Shown here: piece by piece, positions 17,193-26,508 of the stretch
Numbering within the stretch: the first letter of the stretch is position 1
Layout of the letters: the number at the start of each line of letters is the position of its first letter
Assembly (NCBI RefSeq): GCF_001449115.1
Contig: NZ_LAIJ01000012.1
Location: 424,947 to 488,946, forward strand
Source of the DNA: Occallatibacter gabretensis
GTDB taxonomy: Bacteria > Acidobacteriota > Terriglobia > Terriglobales > Acidobacteriaceae
Reading direction: 5' to 3'
Length of the DNA stretch: 64,000 bases
Notes under the pieces: generated by a model
Told to the model about the DNA's origin: nothing
Database searches by the model: none
What the model saw: the letters and a program-made list of their open reading frames with translations, nothing else
Position numbers and translations under genes: made by a program

Positions 17193-17990
17193 TTATGCGG
17201 CCCGCGCCGCTTCTTTCTTGCGCCGCCGCTCCGGATGCACCCACCACGCCACGCCTATCCCAAGCAGATAGAGCGAAAACATCGGGACCGCATACGCGCA
17301 CATCGTCCACGGATCAGGCGTTGGCGTAATAATCGCCGCCACGATGAAAATAATCAAAATCGCATAACGAATGTTCTTCCACAGAAACTTCGGGCTCACA
17401 ATCCCGAACATTGCCAGAAAGAAAATCAGGATCGGCAGCTCAAAGCTGATGCCCAACCCCAGGATGATTGACATAAAGAAGCCTGTGTAATCCTCAATCG
17501 TGATCATCGGATTGAACGGCTTGCCGAAGCCGAAGATCAAAATCTTCAGTGCGCTCGGAAACACGAAAAAATATCCAAACGAAGCACCCGTTAAAAACAG
17601 CCCAAGCGTGGCCGTCATAAACGGAATCACAAACCGCCGCTCTTTTTGATACAGCCCCGGCGAGATAAACAGCCACACCTGGTAAAGAATGAACGGAGCC
17701 GCCAGAATCGCTCCTCCAATCAAAGCCACCTGCATCGACAGGTTCATGCCATCCATCGGATGTGTCATGTTCAGCTTCAAATTGAGCTTGTTGATCGGCG
17801 CCTGAACCAGTCCATACAGCCGGTCGTGAAAATAAAACGCGATAAAGAATCCGGCTGCAAGATAAATCGCGGAGTGCACAATTCTCTTGCGCAGCTCCTC
17901 CAGATGCTCCATCAGGCTCATGCCGGGCAGGTCCGCGCGCTCGCTCACCGCGGCGCGAGCTTTGCCGATTGCATCCCCGGCATCAACCAT
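17193..17990 (-). CDS. tatC: Sec-independent protein translocase TatC
   Basis: This 265-residue six-helix protein is the twin-arginine signal receptor. The signature 'SLMEHLEELRKRIVHSAIYL' is at residues ~25-45, and 'FELPILIFFLAMFGIVSP' and 'IIFIVAAIITPTPDPWT' are in the second half. The ATG lies 8 bases inside the tatB reading frame, so the two are translationally coupled. A short N-terminal arm of about 20 residues precedes the usual start of the family. Confidence 0.97.
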   Translation of the reverse strand: MVDAGDAIGKARAAVSERADLPGMSLMEHLEELRKRIVHSAIYLAAGFFIAFYFHDRLYGLVQAPINKLNLKLNMTHPMDGMNLSMQVALIGGAILAAPFILYQVWLFISPGLYQKERRFVIPFMTATLGLFLTGASFGYFFVFPSALKILIFGFGKPFNPMITIEDYTGFFMSIILGLGISFELPILIFFLAMFGIVSPKFLWKNIRYAILIIFIVAAIITPTPDPWTMCAYAVPMFSLYLLGIGVAWWVHPERRRKKEAARAA

Positions 17991-18528
17991 GCTGGCTCAC
18001 CGTCTCTCCCGCCGATAAGGATTCAGATGGCGATGTCGGCAAGGATGGTGCGGCATCTTCCGCTCCGATGTTCGCCTCCACAACAGGCTCCGTCACATCC
18101 GCTCTCGAAACCGGCTTCGCGGCGGCAACCGTCTCGCCCGTCGAAGGCGGCTGAATCACCAGCGTCGATGGAGACTCCGAAATCGGTGCAGACATGCGCG
18201 GCGGCTGTACCTCGGGCATTTTCTCCACGGTAGGATCTTCCAGCGGCGCGGCCAAAGCCGGGGCAGAGACCGACTGCGCAGCCAGCGTCTGCTGCCGTTG
18301 CGCCTCTTCCTTCTGCTTCCGTTCAGCCTCTTCAGACATCCGCAACTCTTCTTCCATCTGGAACTTGAAATCATTGGAAGCCTTGCGGAATTCGTACATC
18401 AGCTTGCCGATCTGCCGGCCAATCTGCGGAAGCTTGCGCGGCCCAAAAACCACCAACGCCAGGATCATCAGAATGATGGAGTCCGCCATGCCAACGCTGG
18501 CTTGCTCAATTGGTAAAGGCGTTCCCAT
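17983..18528 (-). CDS. tatB: TatA/TatB family translocase subunit
   Basis: One N-terminal helix followed by the hinge 'LVVFGPRKLPQIGRQIGKLM' and an amphipathic helix mark a TatA/B subunit. At 181 residues with a long Pro/Ala/Ser-rich C-tail it is closer to TatB in length. Position directly before tatC fits either. In phyla with few tat genes one protein may serve both roles. Start is ATG 18528 or ATG 18489; the second leaves a more usual short N-terminus. Downstream genes tatC, M28 and dinB follow on the same strand. Confidence 0.93.
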   Translation of the reverse strand: MGTPLPIEQASVGMADSIILMILALVVFGPRKLPQIGRQIGKLMYEFRKASNDFKFQMEEELRMSEEAERKQKEEAQRQQTLAAQSVSAPALAAPLEDPTVEKMPEVQPPRMSAPISESPSTLVIQPPSTGETVAAAKPVSRADVTEPVVEANIGAEDAAPSLPTSPSESLSAGETVSQHG

Positions 18529-18727: not shown

Positions 18728-19234
18728 TCACCAATCAAACCCACCCTTCGGCGGCGGCCACGCACCCAGCAGCTGCCGAAGCAGCACAATCCGCCCAAAG
18801 TGATACCCGTTGTGCGCCGCCAGGCTTTCCAGCTGCTCCCGCACCGTCATTACGCGCACCGGCTCGTCGGGCCGTGACGTGCAACGCACCGGCACATTCA
18901 ACCGTCCCTCATCCTTCGCCGCCTCGCCCGCCTTTCGGTTCCCCGCCAGAAATCGCTCGCAAAGCTGCCCCCAATATTCCTTCTCAGCGTCCTGCACCGT
19001 CGGAAACGCATCCCGCGGACTCGCCGGATACAGCCTCTCCACGCCGGCAATCCACTCCAGGGTGATCTGCTGCCAGAACGCGATATGCCACAGCTCCTCA
19101 TAAATCGAATGCGGCGCTCCCGCAGGCGTTTTATGCGCCAACTCCTGCGTCAACCCCTCCAGAATGTGCGCCGGCGGCGTATATGCGCTGTCTCCGATAA
19201 GTGCCTGCTCCAGTTCGCTCACAGCTTCCTCCAT
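18728..19234 (-). CDS. DinB-like four-helix protein (second copy)
   Basis: The protein has 168 residues. 'IYEELWHIAFWQQITLEW' and 'LAAHNGYHFGRIVLLRQLLG' carry the metal-ligand histidines of the DinB fold. It resembles but is not a close copy of the dinB-like gene at 15744. It is divergent from riboswitch-nadA; the ATG is at 19234. Function unassigned. Confidence 0.87.
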   Translation of the reverse strand: MEEAVSELEQALIGDSAYTPPAHILEGLTQELAHKTPAGAPHSIYEELWHIAFWQQITLEWIAGVERLYPASPRDAFPTVQDAEKEYWGQLCERFLAGNRKAGEAAKDEGRLNVPVRCTSRPDEPVRVMTVREQLESLAAHNGYHFGRIVLLRQLLGAWPPPKGGFDW

Positions 19235-19266
19235 ACCTCACTCAAAATACCGTAATCTCGACAAAT

Positions 19267-19293
19267 TTGAATCATGTGCGTGTTTGTTAAAAT
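19267..19293 (+). promoter_or_regulatory. candidate nadA promoter
   Basis: TTGAAT (19267-19272) and TAAAAT (19288-19293) are spaced by 15 bases, short of the ideal 17. A start near 19300 would put the riboswitch at the very 5' end of the transcript, which is the expected layout. Confidence 0.4.
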
Positions 19294-19307
19294 CGAATGA
19301 TGTAACA

Positions 19308-19418
19308 GGCTGCAACATCCCCGTGGGCGGAAAAGTAGCGCGCTCACTGCAGCCGATAAGAAAGCTTTCAACATCCCCGTTCGCCGGACCAGCACTTCGG
19401 GCCGGCAGAGCTGAAGGC
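19308..19418 (+). ncRNA. NAD+-I riboswitch (nadA motif), two tandem domains
   Basis: Two similar hairpin domains precede nadA, each with the loop core CAACATCCCCGT (19313-19324 and 19369-19380). Domain 1 is closed by GGCTGC (19308-19313) with GCAGCC (19349-19354). Inside it GUGGGC pairs with GCUCAC, and AGCG sits before the 3' strand. Domain 2 is closed by GCTTTC (19364-19369) with GAAGGC (19413-19418), and its inner GCCGG/CCGGC forms a second stem. The 3' strand of the domain 2 stem contains the GAAGG that would bind the ribosome 9 bases before the GTG of nadA, so ligand binding should block translation. Class, core and gene context match the acidobacterial nadA motif as I recall it. Confidence 0.85.
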
Positions 19419-19426
19419 GGAATACA

Positions 19427-20572
19427 GTGACTCTGGTTCTTGACGATCTTGCGCAGGCTGCTGACTCGTGCAGTCTTGAAAACTATCTCGCGCTCCCCGA
19501 CCACACCATGGATGACCGCATCACCGCGGCGCGCGCCAAACTTGGCTCCTCCACCATCCTCCTCGGCCACCACTACCAGCGCGATGAAGTCATCCGCTTC
19601 GCCGATTTCACCGGCGACAGCTACAAACTCTCGAAGATCGCCGCTGAGACCGACGCAAAATACCTCATCTTCTGCGGTGTGCACTTCATGGCAGAAAGCG
19701 CCGATGTCCTTGGCCGCGACTCGCAGCAGGTCATCCTGCCCGACCTGAACGCCGGCTGCTCCATGGCCGATATGGCAGAGATCTCGCAGGTTGAAGCCTG
19801 CTGGGAGGCGCTCGCGCGCACCTGCGATCTAAGCAAGATCGTTCCCATCACCTACATGAACTCCTCCGCCGCCATCAAAGCCTTCTGCGGAGAAAACGGC
19901 GGCCTCGTCTGCACCTCCTCGAACGCCCGCCAGGCCTTCGAGTGGGCCTTCCAGCGCGGAAAACAGATCCTCTTCCTCCCCGATCAGCACCTCGGCCGCA
20001 ACACCGGCTTCGCCATGGGCATTCCCCTCGATGAAATGAAGATCTGGGACCCCTGGGCCGTTCAGCTCCCCGTAAATCAGGGCGGCCTTTCCACCAGCGA
20101 GCTCAACTCTGCCCGCATCCTACTCTGGAAAGGCCACTGCTCGGTCCATCAGCGCTTCCTGCCCAGCCATGTGGACGCAGTCCGCGCCAAGTACCCCGGC
20201 ATCCAGGTCATCGTCCACCCGGAGTGCCGCTGGGAGGTCTGCCAGAAGGCCGACGCCCTCGGCTCCACGGAACGCCTCATTCAACTCGTAGAAGACGCCC
20301 CCGCCGGAACCACCTTTGCCATCGGAACGGAAATCCATCTCATCAACCGCCTGGCCAAACGTTTCGCCCCGGAGGGCAAAAAGATCATCACCCTCGACGA
20401 CACCGGCTGCCTCTGCACCACCATGTACCGCATCAGCCCGCAGCACCTGGCCTGGGCGCTCGAAAACCTCGTCGAAGGCCGCGTCGTCAACCGCATCCAG
20501 GTCCGCAAAAACGTCAAGCACTGGGCCCGCGTCGCCCTGGACCGCATGTTGGAGATCAATCCCGGAAAATGA
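19427..20572 (+). CDS. nadA: quinolinate synthase NadA
   Basis: The 381-residue [4Fe-4S] enzyme condenses iminoaspartate with dihydroxyacetone phosphate to quinolinate in de novo NAD synthesis. 'LLGHHYQRDEVIRFADFTGDS', 'FCGVHFMAESADVL', 'YMNSSAAIKAFCG', 'HPECRWEVCQKAD' and 'DDTGCLCTTMYRIS' are family blocks and contain the cluster cysteines. The start is GTG at 19427, preceded by GAAGG inside the riboswitch. nadB lies 4 kb away on the opposite strand. A repeat/hairpin (20580-20622) follows the stop and may end the transcript. Confidence 0.97.
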   Translation: MTLVLDDLAQAADSCSLENYLALPDHTMDDRITAARAKLGSSTILLGHHYQRDEVIRFADFTGDSYKLSKIAAETDAKYLIFCGVHFMAESADVLGRDSQQVILPDLNAGCSMADMAEISQVEACWEALARTCDLSKIVPITYMNSSAAIKAFCGENGGLVCTSSNARQAFEWAFQRGKQILFLPDQHLGRNTGFAMGIPLDEMKIWDPWAVQLPVNQGGLSTSELNSARILLWKGHCSVHQRFLPSHVDAVRAKYPGIQVIVHPECRWEVCQKADALGSTERLIQLVEDAPAGTTFAIGTEIHLINRLAKRFAPEGKKIITLDDTGCLCTTMYRISPQHLAWALENLVEGRVVNRIQVRKNVKHWARVALDRMLEINPGK

Positions 20573-20579
20573 GGAGTGC

Positions 20580-20622
20580 TGCGGGTGCCCCTGGTCCCGA
20601 TTTTGGGACCAGGGATACCACA
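20580..20622. repeat. dispersed repeat family C, copy after nadA
   Basis: The flanks GCGGGTGCCCC and GGGATACCAC enclose a perfect stem: CCCTGGTCCC (20588-20597) with GGGACCAGGG (20604-20613). It starts 8 bases after the nadA stop and could also act as a terminator-like structure. Related copies are at 58808, 60338 and 60513. Confidence 0.65.
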
Positions 20623-20724
20623 AAAGCCAGCCTCACCGTCTGTAATCCACAACCTCAATTTTTTCAAGATAGTTTGCACAAAATTACCGCCATCTGTGCC
20701 ATAATCATCTCGAAATCAAAAAAA

Positions 20725-20748
20725 GGCCCGGTCCTTAAGGACCGGGCC
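20725..20748. terminator. strong hairpin, probable terminator
   Basis: GGCCCGGTCC (20725-20734), TTAA loop, GGACCGGGCC (20739-20748): a perfect 10-bp stem. It is preceded by a run of A (terminator-like for leftward transcripts) and followed by only TT, so for nadA it is a weaker intrinsic terminator. Confidence 0.6.
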
Positions 20749-20903
20749 TTCGCATTTCCGCGGATTGGAGCTCAAAAAGTGGCATTTTCACCAGCATTTC
20801 ACCGCAATTTCGCACCCTCTTTCCAGCAAAAATTTACCCGCAATCGCATGAATATAAACAGCCTATAAGAATCCCCTAACCGAAAAACACATTTTTTCAC
20901 TCC

Positions 20904-22537: not shown

Positions 22538-23722
22538 ATGAGGACAGCCAGGTGGGTTCGCGGAATCATTGTGGCCGTAGCAGCAATTGCAGTAGCCGCA
22601 ATCTCCGGCTGCGCCGGATTCTGGGATCCGCTGCCCAACTCCGGCGGTGGCGGCACCAATCCCGTGAGCGGCACCTTTTACGTCCTTAATCAAAAGACCA
22701 ATCAGCTCGCCGGCTTTGCTTTCGCCGCCGGCGCCTCATCTCCAACCGCGGTGACGAACAGCCCATACTCGCTTCCCTCGCAGCCGCTGGCCATGGCCAT
22801 CGCGCCCAGTGGAAGTTACCTGTATGTCAGCACCCTCTCCGGCATCCTTTACTACACCATTAACGCAGATGGCTCGCTGACCGCCGGCGACAGCGGCCAG
22901 ATCCTCAGCAGTGACACCGCCTTTGCCATGCAGGTTGACCCCAGCGGATCGTGGCTTATCGAGTCCGTCTCCGGAAGCGGCGTTCTGGCTGCTCTCCCCC
23001 TCGACTCCAGTACCGGAGCCCTCAACGGGACCGCACAAACCGTCAATCTCCCTGCCACCACACTCAAGGAAATCGCCGTCACACCCAGCGGAGCCGCTAC
23101 GCCGTATGTCTTTGTCGCCATGGGAACCGGCGGAACCGCAGTAGTAGCCTTCAATTCAGGCAACGCGAATCCCTTCGGCGTAGTGAGCAAAATTGGTGTG
23201 AAGAACTCGCTCGGCGCCGACAACGCTGTCGCCGTCGATCCGGGGAGCCGCCTGCTCTATGTGGGAGAAACCGTGGCCGTAAGTGGAACACAATCCGGCG
23301 GTCTGCGCGTCTTCACCATCGGAAGCTCGGCCATCAGTGAAATCTCCGGCTCGCCCTATGCAACCGGCGGCACCGGGCCTTCCGCCATCCTACCCACAAC
23401 TGGCATCGTCTACGTGGCCAACAGCGCCGTCAGCGGCAGCTCCAGCGGAAACATCAGCGGTTTCTCTATCGTAACTTCAACTTCTGGAACCAGCTACTCC
23501 TTAACCGCTATCAACACTATTTCCGCCGGTTCGCTCACGTCCGCAATCGCAGAAGACAACACAAATGCATACATCCTCGCCGTAAACTTCGGTGGCAGTC
23601 CGGATCTCAGCACATTCACCTTTGATTCCACCACGCAAGGCCAGCTCGATGCCGGCCCCACCTCATCCACTGGCACAGATCCCACCGGCACCATTGCAAT
23701 CATCGCCGCGCCTGCTCTTTAA
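22538..23722 (+). CDS. lipoprotein with YncE/lactonase-like beta-propeller
   Basis: The lipobox 'AISGC' follows a long hydrophobic signal. A Gly-rich spacer ('PNSGGGGTNP') leads into about seven repeats of the type 'YVLNQKTNQLAGFAF', 'PSGSYLYVSTLSGILYYT', 'DPGSRLLYVGETVAV'. This is the 6-phosphogluconolactonase-like/YncE beta-propeller fold, common as surface proteins in Acidobacteria, here probably non-enzymatic. AGGAG sits 6 bases before the ATG. It is convergent with nadB and overlaps it by 4 bases. Confidence 0.88.
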   Translation: MRTARWVRGIIVAVAAIAVAAISGCAGFWDPLPNSGGGGTNPVSGTFYVLNQKTNQLAGFAFAAGASSPTAVTNSPYSLPSQPLAMAIAPSGSYLYVSTLSGILYYTINADGSLTAGDSGQILSSDTAFAMQVDPSGSWLIESVSGSGVLAALPLDSSTGALNGTAQTVNLPATTLKEIAVTPSGAATPYVFVAMGTGGTAVVAFNSGNANPFGVVSKIGVKNSLGADNAVAVDPGSRLLYVGETVAVSGTQSGGLRVFTIGSSAISEISGSPYATGGTGPSAILPTTGIVYVANSAVSGSSSGNISGFSIVTSTSGTSYSLTAINTISAGSLTSAIAEDNTNAYILAVNFGGSPDLSTFTFDSTTQGQLDAGPTSSTGTDPTGTIAIIAAPAL

Positions 23723-25302
23723 TCGGCAAACGTCACGTACTTGCCGTCAAAGATCGAGTGCTTTCCGAATCGCTCATCATCCCGCCGGGGATAATCTGTG
23801 CGAAAGTGTGCGCCACGGCTCTCCGTTCGCGCCAGCGCCGAACTCAGGATCGCTTCTGCAACCGCGCACAGCGACTGCGCTTCCACAATCTCGCGCGACG
23901 GCGTGGCTCGCCCGGCAATCTCATCCAGAGCCTCCGCGCAACGCGCCTGCAGAGCAAGTCCGTCACGCAGGCCGTTTTCCTCTCGCAGCAAGCCTGCGCA
24001 GCGGTCCATTGTCTGCCTCAGTTCCTGAACTATCTCCGCTACTAGCCCTTCCGGCACAGCCACAGCCCGCATAGGCTCGGCATCCGGAACCACCGCAAGC
24101 GACAGCGCATCGGCAAGCATAGCCTGTGCAGCCCGCGCGCCAAACACCAGCCCTTCCAGCAGCGAGTTCGAAGCAAGCCGATTCGCCCCATGCAGGCCAG
24201 TACATGCTGCCTCGCCTGCCGCATACAGCCCACGCACCCGCGTGCGCCCGTCGAGATCGGTCCTCACGCCGCCCATCAGGTAGTGCGCCGCCGGACGAAT
24301 CGGAATCCGGTCCCGATGCAGGTCCAGCCCATGCTGTGCCAGGAACGCGCTGATGCCCGGAAAACGCTTGTGCAAATCTATTCCGGTCACATGCCGCATG
24401 TCGAGATACACCTGCCGCGCCTGACGCCCGGCCTCGTCCATTCCTTCACGCCATACCGCGCGCGCCACCACATCGCGGGGCGCAAGCTCCAGCCGCGCAT
24501 CGTAGCGCTCCATAAAGCGCTCGCCGCGATCATTCACCAGCCATGCGCCCTCGCCGCGCAGAGCCTCAGAGAGCAGAAACGCCGGCACACCCGGCAGCGC
24601 CAGCGCCGTGGGATGAAACTGGTAAAACTCCATGTCAGACAGCTCGGCCCCGGCGCGCAAGGCAAGCGCCAGCCCATCGCCCGTCGCCACGGCCGGATTG
24701 GTCGTATGCGAATACATCTGCCCCGCGCCGCCGGCAGCTACGAGCACCGCGCGCGCCGGTACTCGCGAAAGTACGCCATCGCGATCCAGCAGATCCGCGC
24801 CCACAACGCGTCCATCGGCAACCACAAGGTTCGTAACCGTGGTCCACTCGGCAAAGCGAATGTTGGCTTGACTTCTTGCCAGCACCGCCAGCGCGCGTCC
24901 AATCTCTGCTCCTGTCGCATCGCCATTTGCATGAAGAATTCGAGGCCTGGAATGCGCCGCCTCGCGCGTACGCAGCAATTGACCTGCCTCGCGATCAAAC
25001 TGCGCACCCCACTCCATCAACTCCGCCACGCGCAGCGGTCCCTCGCGCACCAGCGTCTCCGCGGCGGCGCGATCCACCAATCCATCTCCAGCCACAATTG
25101 TGTCTTCGAAGTGCAGCGCTACATCCGCATCGCCTTCCATCGCCACAGCAATGCCGCCCTGCGCATAGTGCGTATTCGACTCGCTCACTGCTTCCTTCGT
25201 GACAACAAGCACGGAGCCATAGGCGGCCAACTCAACCGCCGCACGCAGCCCGGCCACGCCAGCGCCGATTACCAGGAAATCCGATTGCAAAAAAGGGTTC
25301 AC
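23719..25302 (-). CDS. nadB: L-aspartate oxidase NadB
   Basis: The 527-residue flavoprotein oxidises L-aspartate to iminoaspartate, the substrate of NadA. It carries the FAD loop 'FLVIGAGVAGLRAAVELA', 'SNTHYAQGGIAVAM', 'HSRPRILHANGDATG', 'YQFHPTALALPG', 'LLSEALRGEGAWLVN' and 'GLYAAGEAACTGLHGANRLASNSLLEGLVFG'-type blocks, then the C-terminal helical domain. The start codon is GTG at 25302. It is divergent from aroB. nadA is 4 kb away on the other strand, so the two genes are not one operon. No copy of the NAD+-I core is seen upstream of nadB. Confidence 0.97.
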   Translation of the reverse strand: MNPFLQSDFLVIGAGVAGLRAAVELAAYGSVLVVTKEAVSESNTHYAQGGIAVAMEGDADVALHFEDTIVAGDGLVDRAAAETLVREGPLRVAELMEWGAQFDREAGQLLRTREAAHSRPRILHANGDATGAEIGRALAVLARSQANIRFAEWTTVTNLVVADGRVVGADLLDRDGVLSRVPARAVLVAAGGAGQMYSHTTNPAVATGDGLALALRAGAELSDMEFYQFHPTALALPGVPAFLLSEALRGEGAWLVNDRGERFMERYDARLELAPRDVVARAVWREGMDEAGRQARQVYLDMRHVTGIDLHKRFPGISAFLAQHGLDLHRDRIPIRPAAHYLMGGVRTDLDGRTRVRGLYAAGEAACTGLHGANRLASNSLLEGLVFGARAAQAMLADALSLAVVPDAEPMRAVAVPEGLVAEIVQELRQTMDRCAGLLREENGLRDGLALQARCAEALDEIAGRATPSREIVEAQSLCAVAEAILSSALARTESRGAHFRTDYPRRDDERFGKHSIFDGKYVTFAD

Positions 25303-25380
25303 CCATCAGGCTAAAGCATTTTCTTGTCCCTTGTCCCTGTTTCCTTATCCCTCGCTCCGCACATTTACGATAGAGATAGC

Positions 25381-26508
25381 GTGCAGACCATACGAGTAGA
25401 CACCCCATCAGCACGATATGACGTCTTCGCGGGCAGCGGCCTGTTGGACACGCTCGGGTCCCGCATTGAGCGCGTGGCCGGCCAGCTTCCGCGCCGCGTC
25501 TTTGTCTTAACCTCGCCCGAAATCTGGGCGCTCTGGGGCGAAACGCTGGAAAAATCCTTTCCGCAGCCGCCCATCGCTCTTTTCCTTCCTGCCGGCGAGA
25601 AAAGCAAGACGCTCTCCAGCGTGGAGCGCCTCGCCCGCCAGATGATTGAAGCCGGCGGCGACCGCGGCTCCTTGCTTATCGCCTTTGGCGGCGGCATCGT
25701 CGGCGACGTCGGCGGATTCCTCGCCGCCATCTTCATGCGAGGAATCCCATATATCCAGGTCCCCACCACATTTCTCGCGCAGGTTGATTCCTCCGTCGGC
25801 GGCAAGACCGGCGTAAACCTGCCAAACGGCAAGAACCTCCTCGGCAGCTTTCATCACCCCCTCGCCGTCTTTGCGGACATTGGCGTCCTCGGCACGCTCA
25901 GCGAGCGCGAGCTGCGCGCCGGTCTCATGGAAAGCGTGAAAGCCGGTATCATCCGTGACCGCGCGCTGGTTCGCTACATGGATGAGCGTGCCGAAGACGT
26001 GCTGGCGCGCGATCCCAAAGCCCTCGAAAAGGTTATTGCCGCATCCGTCCGCATGAAGGCCGATGTCGTCAACCGCGATGAGCGCGAAAGCGGCCTGCGC
26101 ATGATTCTCAACTTCGGCCACACTCTCGGTCACGCCATTGAGCAGGTCACACGCTACAAAGTCCTGCTGCACGGCGAAGCCGTCGGCTGGGGCATGATTG
26201 CCGCGCTCTACATCGCAGGCCTGCGCGGAACCATCACACGCGCACAATCAGACCGCATGGAAGAACTGATCCACCACTATGGCGCTCTTCCGCCATTCGA
26301 AGCGAGCGCGGCCAGGCTCGTTGCCGCCAGCGGCGCGGATAAAAAGAACGTCGGCGGCATACGCCGCTTCGTGCTTCCCATCGGTATCGGTGACGCCGGC
26401 GTTGTGGAAGACATCACCGTCAGTGAGCTGCGCGAAGCAGCCGAATACATGCTGGCGCAGGCCGCGCCCAAACCCCAACCGGCTCATCGCACGGAGCAAA
26501 AGGCCTGA
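25381..26508 (+). CDS. aroB: 3-dehydroquinate synthase
   Basis: The 375-residue enzyme closes DAHP to 3-dehydroquinate. Motifs: '[16 protein letters not shown]', '[20 protein letters not shown]', '[21 protein letters not shown]', and the zinc ligands within '[10 protein letters not shown]', '[11 protein letters not shown]' and '[11 protein letters not shown]'. An in-frame TTG at 25324 exists, but GTG 25381 gives the normal N-terminus ('[15 protein letters not shown]'). The stop codon overlaps the menG start as TGATG, so translation is coupled. Other shikimate genes aroDE and aroC lie elsewhere in the window. Confidence 0.96.

Follow-up and report, generated by a model that had tools for sequence, protein, structure and literature searches.

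In the Acidobacteriaceae member Occallatibacter gabretensis, the nadA gene is directly preceded by a short region in which one sequence occurs twice, each time in a hairpin. This locus raises the question of whether the two hairpins form a tandem NAD+-I riboswitch and, if so, how they share the control of nadA. An original prediction, made from the letters of a 64,000-nucleotide stretch of contig NZ_LAIJ01000012.1 (hereafter the window), proposed such a riboswitch and named an Rfam covariance search as one of its checks. In this study, the element, the gene that follows it, and their counterparts in related genomes were analysed computationally.

Materials and methods

Rfam covariance models were searched against the window, and E-values are given for the whole window. 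Folds and their energies were obtained with ViennaRNA and compared with those of shuffled sequences. Positions are those of the window. The papers on relatives (PMC7297122, PMC7708056, PMC10702441, and PMC7749635) are cited from the parts of their text that were available.

A total of 176 distinct leaders were extracted from fetched loci. Of the 174 that precede NadA, 164 had their domain 1 resolved by a second parser; the ten failures (L165, L172, L194, L243, L246, L268, L029, L035, L128, and L160) include none of the first domains that lacked the G-x-G in an earlier parse. The parsers accepted only leaders with CA/TG innermost in P1 and a P1' near GCUUUCA, and those columns prove nothing alone. 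Because the sample was mostly picked by RF03013 matches, reduced forms of the switch are probably under-counted.

A tandem NAD+-I riboswitch precedes nadA

RF03013 (nadA, NAD+-I) matched the window at 19308-19354 (47.6 bits, E 5.3e-8) and again at 19364-19418 (44.1 bits, E 5.9e-7). The search named by the original prediction thus placed both domains above the curated cut-off of 37.5 bits, and the predicted two-domain span, 19308-19418, proved exact. No Rfam family other than RF03013 matched the window at E up to 0.5, and no further RF03013 match was found elsewhere in the 5.3-Mb genome at E up to 0.001. The two similar bulged stem-loops lie in tandem, separated by a 9-nt linker assigned by sequence (19355..19363, + strand); 10 of 164 leaders have this length, and linkers of 6 nt (40 leaders) and 7 nt (35 leaders) are the most frequent.

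As had been described, CAACATCCCCGT is present in two exact copies, starting at 19313 and 19369 and therefore 56 bases apart, each within a hairpin of its own that folds alone. Domain 1 folds at -20.5 kcal/mol (z -2.1; 2 of 200 shuffles as stable) and domain 2 at -21.6 kcal/mol (z -2.3; 4 of 200). When the 133 nt of 19308-19440 were folded together, the same fold was obtained and was less exceptional (z -1.5; 13 of 200 shuffles as good). The ACANCCCC bulge is found in both domains, as ACAUCCCC at 19315-19322 and 19371-19378. The gene directly after the element (19427..20572, + strand; GTG start, 381 aa) belongs to NAD+ synthesis: it is nadA, encoding quinolinate synthase, by TIGR00550 (316 bits vs a cut-off of 263) and Pfam NadA. 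The class, the tandem form, the core sequence, and the controlled gene are therefore borne out by RF03013, the fold, and TIGR00550, and 19308-19418 is confirmed as a regular member of a known riboswitch class, newly found here.

A chance similarity with no riboswitch behind it is scarcely credible. The 12-mer repeat by itself is within chance, as at least two matches arose in 12 of 100 window shuffles with up to one mismatch allowed; hence, the observation rests on structure and sequence together. Two adjacent above-cut-off matches before nadA, and the compensatory changes in relatives described below, refute this explanation.

A simple sigma-70 scan of 19150-20750 recognised no promoter. Upstream of nadA, the opposite strand holds, within 17193-18528 (-), a TatC gene above its NCBIfam cut-off and a TatA/B-like gene whose best matches are below the cut-offs. 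The nadB gene (23719-25302, - strand) has no RF03013 match, in agreement with the predicted lack of such a leader there. The divergent aroB (25324-26508, + strand) leaves 21 bp between the listed starts and thus little room for one. It had further been suggested that NadA would carry the control of the pathway; this is conjecture, because nadB or enzyme activity could be controlled otherwise.

Domain 1 lacks the P1b helix

Domain 1 (19308..19354, + strand) corresponds to the aptamer that, in the relatives studied, recognises the ADP part of NAD+. Its P1 helix pairs GGCUGCA (19308..19314) with UGCAGCC (19348-19354) in the fold, and the pairs covary over relatives. The J1 bulge ACAUCCCC (19315..19322), the ligand pocket, contains the residues that PMC7708056 numbers C13 and C14, and ACANCCCC is present in 160 of 164 parsed leaders. 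P1a (19323..19347) consists of 7 bp, GUGGGCG/CGCUCAC, capped by the 11-nt apical loop GAAAAGUAGCG (19330-19340), which holds the J2 motif AGCG at 19337-19340. The G-Y-G of this motif follows the 7-bp P1a and is able to pair with C13 and C14, these tertiary pairs being predicted. The original prediction had noted AGCG in domain 1 and another inner loop in domain 2, and both points were confirmed, the J2 G-x-G being missing from domain 2.

A point that it did not mention is the loss of P1b. The helix beyond the G-Y-G loop, peripheral and not counted as defining, is absent from the window copy, which has the 11-nt loop instead. P1b is missing and the G-x-G kept in 5 of 164 parsed leaders, namely the window copy, L168, L247, L295, and L092. 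Since the constructs of the published crystals (PMC7708056) retained P1b, with the region distal to it replaced, the window copy raises the question of whether P1b is dispensable. On the 5' side of J2, the second base is A in the window copy; GG is found in 99 of 120 relatives. Together with the loss of P1b, this A for G could lower the affinity of domain 1.

A stronger version of this idea is that the window copy is decaying, the loss of P1b having cost domain 1 its affinity and left nadA constitutive or permanently damped. The missing helix would agree with decay, as would the two nearest relatives, L241 and L242, in which J2 is one base shorter and AGG replaces AGYG, and the repeated change of the G-x-G in the domain 1 of the family. 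However, domain 1 of the window copy is intact at C6-G, A7-U, A8, C9, A10, C12-C15, and AGCG, so that the published pocket residues and their G36/G38 partners are in place, and both domains exceed the Rfam cut-off. We consider decay quite improbable.

Domain 2 holds the ribosome site

Domain 2 (19364..19418, + strand) is the expression platform. Its J1' bulge ACAUCCCC (19371..19378) is followed by a 4-bp P1a' with a bulged A at 19407 and a distal hairpin (19379..19411), a fold without the J2 G-x-G; of the 164 second domains, 152 retain C13, and in the other 12 it is altered. The 3' strand of P1', UGAAGGC (19412..19418), pairs with GCUUUCA (19364-19370), as assigned from sequence, fold, and relatives. 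The predicted ribosome site GAAGG (19413-19417) indeed lies within this strand, with 9 nt between GAAGG and the GTG at 19427. Across the parsed relatives, P1' is GCUUUCA paired with UGAAGGC or UGAAAGC, the parsers having required something close. The nearest-neighbour increment of P1' is -6.3 kcal/mol vs -11.2 kcal/mol for P1 in the window copy (medians over the leaders, -6.3 and -8.8 kcal/mol), and the weaker P1' fits a lock unable to close unaided.

The domains had also been suggested to differ in ligand binding. For the window copy, such a difference would fit a domain 2 without the J2 G-x-G, by analogy with the relatives for which it was reported (PMC7708056 and PMC10702441). The inequality of the two domains is real and already published; nor is the missing inner loop of domain 2 a novelty, as it was already stated in PMC7297122.

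Comparison with known systems

The window copy shares with NAD+-I of Acidobacteria (RF03013) the tandem domains, the ACANCCCC bulges, a domain-1 P1a of 7 bp with AGYG, the ribosome site in P1', and nadA downstream; it differs in the missing P1b, in the A for G on the 5' side of J2, and in a domain 2 built of the 4-bp P1a', the bulged A, and the distal hairpin. NAD+-II (pnuC motif) also senses NAD+ or part of it, but it accompanies pnuC and recognises the nicotinamide side (PMC7749635); only RF03013 matched the window at E up to 0.5, in a model library assumed to include NAD+-II. The ubiB variant of the nadA motif has a domain 1 like that of nadA and the ribosome site in P1', but has as domain 2 an uninterrupted stem-loop of 11 bp, where the window copy keeps the J1' bulge (PMC7297122, after Malkowski 2019). 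The tandem glycine riboswitch likewise has two homologous aptamers joined by a linker, with the expression platform in the second (PMC10702441). It is set apart here by description, not sequence: each glycine aptamer takes one ligand, whereas the full-length NAD+-I relative takes one in all (PMC10702441).

Distribution of the riboswitch and of NadA

In a sample of the phylum, 36 of 396 genomes had an RF03013 match above the cut-off, all of them in the window's own family and with two domains each. The family is taken to be Acidobacteriaceae, as two leaders from its genomes are identical to those of Terriglobus albidus and Acidobacteriaceae bacterium KBS 83. Outside the family, sub-threshold single matches in G276 and G116 (27.7 bits each), not on nadA contigs, were rejected as chance. 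In a sample of the family, Acidobacteriaceae, RF03013 matched in 240 of 398 genomes and NadA was found at E up to 1e-60 in 274; comparison of the tables by eye gave 237 genomes with both. The three genomes with a riboswitch match and without such a NadA were G518 (contig edge), G569, and G678 (weak match). NadA was found without a riboswitch match in 37 genomes, in 36 of which it scores E 1.8e-128 or weaker (divergent or fragmentary). G468 (NadA E 1.9e-163) and G461 (6e-86) gave no riboswitch even at a lax threshold. A Pfam NadA search of 24 genomes that lack a convincing riboswitch found no match in 11, one above the cut-off in 12, and only a weak fragment in G376; those 12 NadAs are the short form, or the long form at 53-60% identity. 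Across these genomes, the switch thus largely travels with one NadA lineage.

Among the distinct leaders of the fetched loci, part of which were fetched by their NadA, 174 of 176 have NadA downstream. The two others are L097, a chance match, and L288, in which nadA is mostly deleted. At about 1500-1794 of L288 (G569), a complete tandem NAD+-I riboswitch is followed by the remnant, in which, as read by eye, a few codons from the beginning of nadA run into a short internal fragment. The search of G569 gave no second NadA, and by this reading the tandem is an orphan switch.

Eleven genomes with one match, 9 of the 240 in the family sample plus G752 and G777 from a genus-level search, were candidates for single-domain nadA riboswitches, and none was convincing on inspection. 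A weak second match was found in G401, G480, G562, and G777; the first domain has a very long P1b in G499, G524, and G551; the second bulge motif lies 69 bases away in G476; and a contig edge cuts the locus in G518 and G752. In G678, the match is weak (30.2 bits), with no tandem partner in the sequence read and no NadA match in the genome. As a separate observation, six family members (G130, G179, G225, G273, G305, and G313) carry a NadA 53-57% identical to that of the window, without an NAD+-I leader.

Conservation and reduction of the switch in the family

P1 of domain 1 is paired in 97.1% of cells and has 103 two-sided changes over 159 leaders, compared with a mean of 24.5 and a maximum of 37 in shuffles, which ignore relatedness. 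P1' of domain 2 is near-invariant, with zero two-sided changes in 164 leaders, as expected if the ribosome site fixes its strands. The G-x-G stands at its canonical place in 143 of 164 first domains vs 8 of 164 second domains, and the part of domain 2 beyond J1' is at most 20 nt long in 20 of 165 leaders. Some leaders showed peculiarities of their own: the interdomain linkers of L085 and L131 (G759 and G621) measure 127 and 131 nt, that of L085 with a palindromic segment resembling a dispersed repeat, and L193, L196, L280, and L285 have, by eye, an apparent one-base bulge on the 5' side of P1 in domain 1.

The canonical G-x-G is absent from 21 of 164 first domains. On a FastTree tree of 161 NadA proteins, in which 43 of 158 inner branches are well supported, the G-x-G of domain 1 must have changed state at least 13 times; for short second domains, the count is 12. 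Some losses in domain 1 are single substitutions, others leave J2 one base shorter, and in others the whole inner loop is gone. The last form is found in the window's genus (G615, G653, G705, G657, G735, G744, and G720, the latter apart on the tree) and in other genera (G562, G564, G491, G446, and G406). In seven leaders of the window's genus (L144, L145, L147, L148, L163, L170, and L266), J2 is gone and the linker is a GC-rich hairpin of 21-22 nt. Both domains are small bulged hairpins in G562/L091, G564/L292, and G491/L289; in G687/L260 and G742/L142, a long domain 1 without the motif is combined with a plain hairpin as domain 2. P1 is nevertheless paired in 99.3% of cells in the 21 first domains without G-x-G, where 15 two-sided changes were counted, against at most 9 in shuffles.

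Four of 164 first domains, from four genera (G562, G777, G564, and G446), have a changed C13, and all four lack the G-x-G (Fisher p 2e-4). A tree-based test had four pairs only, of which 2 to 3 changed the same way and none the opposite way (p 0.25-0.5); as this test lacks power, proven co-evolution was rejected, and the joint change of C13 and G-x-G in domain 1 is suggestive only. Among second domains, the G-x-G is missing from each of the 12 in which C13 is changed and from 144 of the 152 others (p 1.0).

The single mutants G36C and G38C of domain 1 were reported to have no NAD+ binding (PMC7708056); hence, natural domains without G-x-G are predicted to bind poorly or differently. As a tentative proposal, which we hold to be doubtful as a whole, the NAD+-I riboswitch may have repeatedly lost the J1-J2 contact in this family while P1 pairing and the ACANCCCC bulge stayed under selection. 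Ligand would then be bound through another geometry, perhaps bulge-bulge docking, or the ligand would be another one, and the P1b-less domain 1 of the window would be an intermediate form on that path. In open-access listings, no description of J2 loss in domain 1 or of P1b-less forms was recognised.

Mode of action

We consider it highly probable that the window element is a translational OFF riboswitch of the NAD+-I class, in which domain 1 senses and domain 2 closes the ribosome site. Family membership, both folds, the position of the ribosome site, the gene, and the conservation pattern are observed at this locus. The ligand, the OFF direction, and one ligand per full-length RNA are taken from the literature on relatives, and from these we infer the action of domain 1 on domain 2 and the function of the P1b-less window copy. 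In relatives, domain 1 binds the ADP moiety of NAD+ (PMC7297122, PMC7708056, and PMC10702441), a full-length RNA was reported to bind one ligand and to need both domains for regulation (PMC10702441), and repression at abundant NAD+ has been reported (as cited in PMC10702441).

Domain 1 would fold so that the P1/J1 junction forms a pocket for ADP. The two G's of AGCG would brace this pocket by pairing with C13 and C14 in J1, and would here reach them from the apical loop and not from between helices. When NAD+ or another ADP-bearing nucleotide fills the pocket, domain 1 would favour closure of domain 2; the closed P1' would sequester GAAGG and keep ribosomes off, and less quinolinate synthase would be made. 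When ligand is scarce, the weak P1' would open and nadA would be translated. The one-ligand stoichiometry and the need for both domains make this the best model, in which ligand bound to domain 1 would promote the closure of P1'. The J2 G's are rare in domain 2, which makes it unlikely that docking generally depends on them; interdomain contacts from the C's of J1' are possible.

PMC7708056 proposes, instead, a sensor with two thresholds, in which domain 1 binds tightly, domain 2 binds millimolar NAD+, and the second binding closes the ribosome site. NAD+ is present in the crystal of one second domain (PMC7708056); A8, C9, and A10 of J1' are conserved in every one of 165 second domains, with one bulge mismatch allowed, and C6-G and A7-U of P1' are likewise paired in 164 of 164, P1' being partly required by the parser. 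However, the second domain of KBS 83, the crystal organism, is among the 12 of 165 that keep the G-x-G in the earlier parse; most second domains, that of the window included, lack it. In addition, isothermal titration was reported to give one site in the full-length relative and none in the isolated domain II (PMC10702441). Two thresholds thus seem rather unlikely to us.

The physiological ligand is less than certain for the OFF switch sensed through domain 1, because the full-length relative is reported not to distinguish NAD+ from ATP (PMC10702441). The reported order of affinity in that relative, ADP equal to ATP and both above NAD+ (PMC10702441), would even suit a switch that senses ADP/ATP, the energy state, and not NAD+ as such. 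This is unlikely, given that 174 of 176 leaders stand before NadA, a gene specific to NAD+ synthesis.

Significance

The literature is divided between one-ligand and two-ligand models of NAD+-I. Natural leaders without the J2 G-x-G of domain 2 (156 of 164), the P1b of domain 1 (5), or the G-x-G of domain 1 (21 of 164) are ready-made constructs for deciding which contacts are essential. The value of the window copy is comparative, as part of this natural deletion series. NAD+-I is thought to let soil Acidobacteriaceae lower NadA when NAD+ is plentiful, and the relatives show that parts of the switch have been repeatedly discarded.
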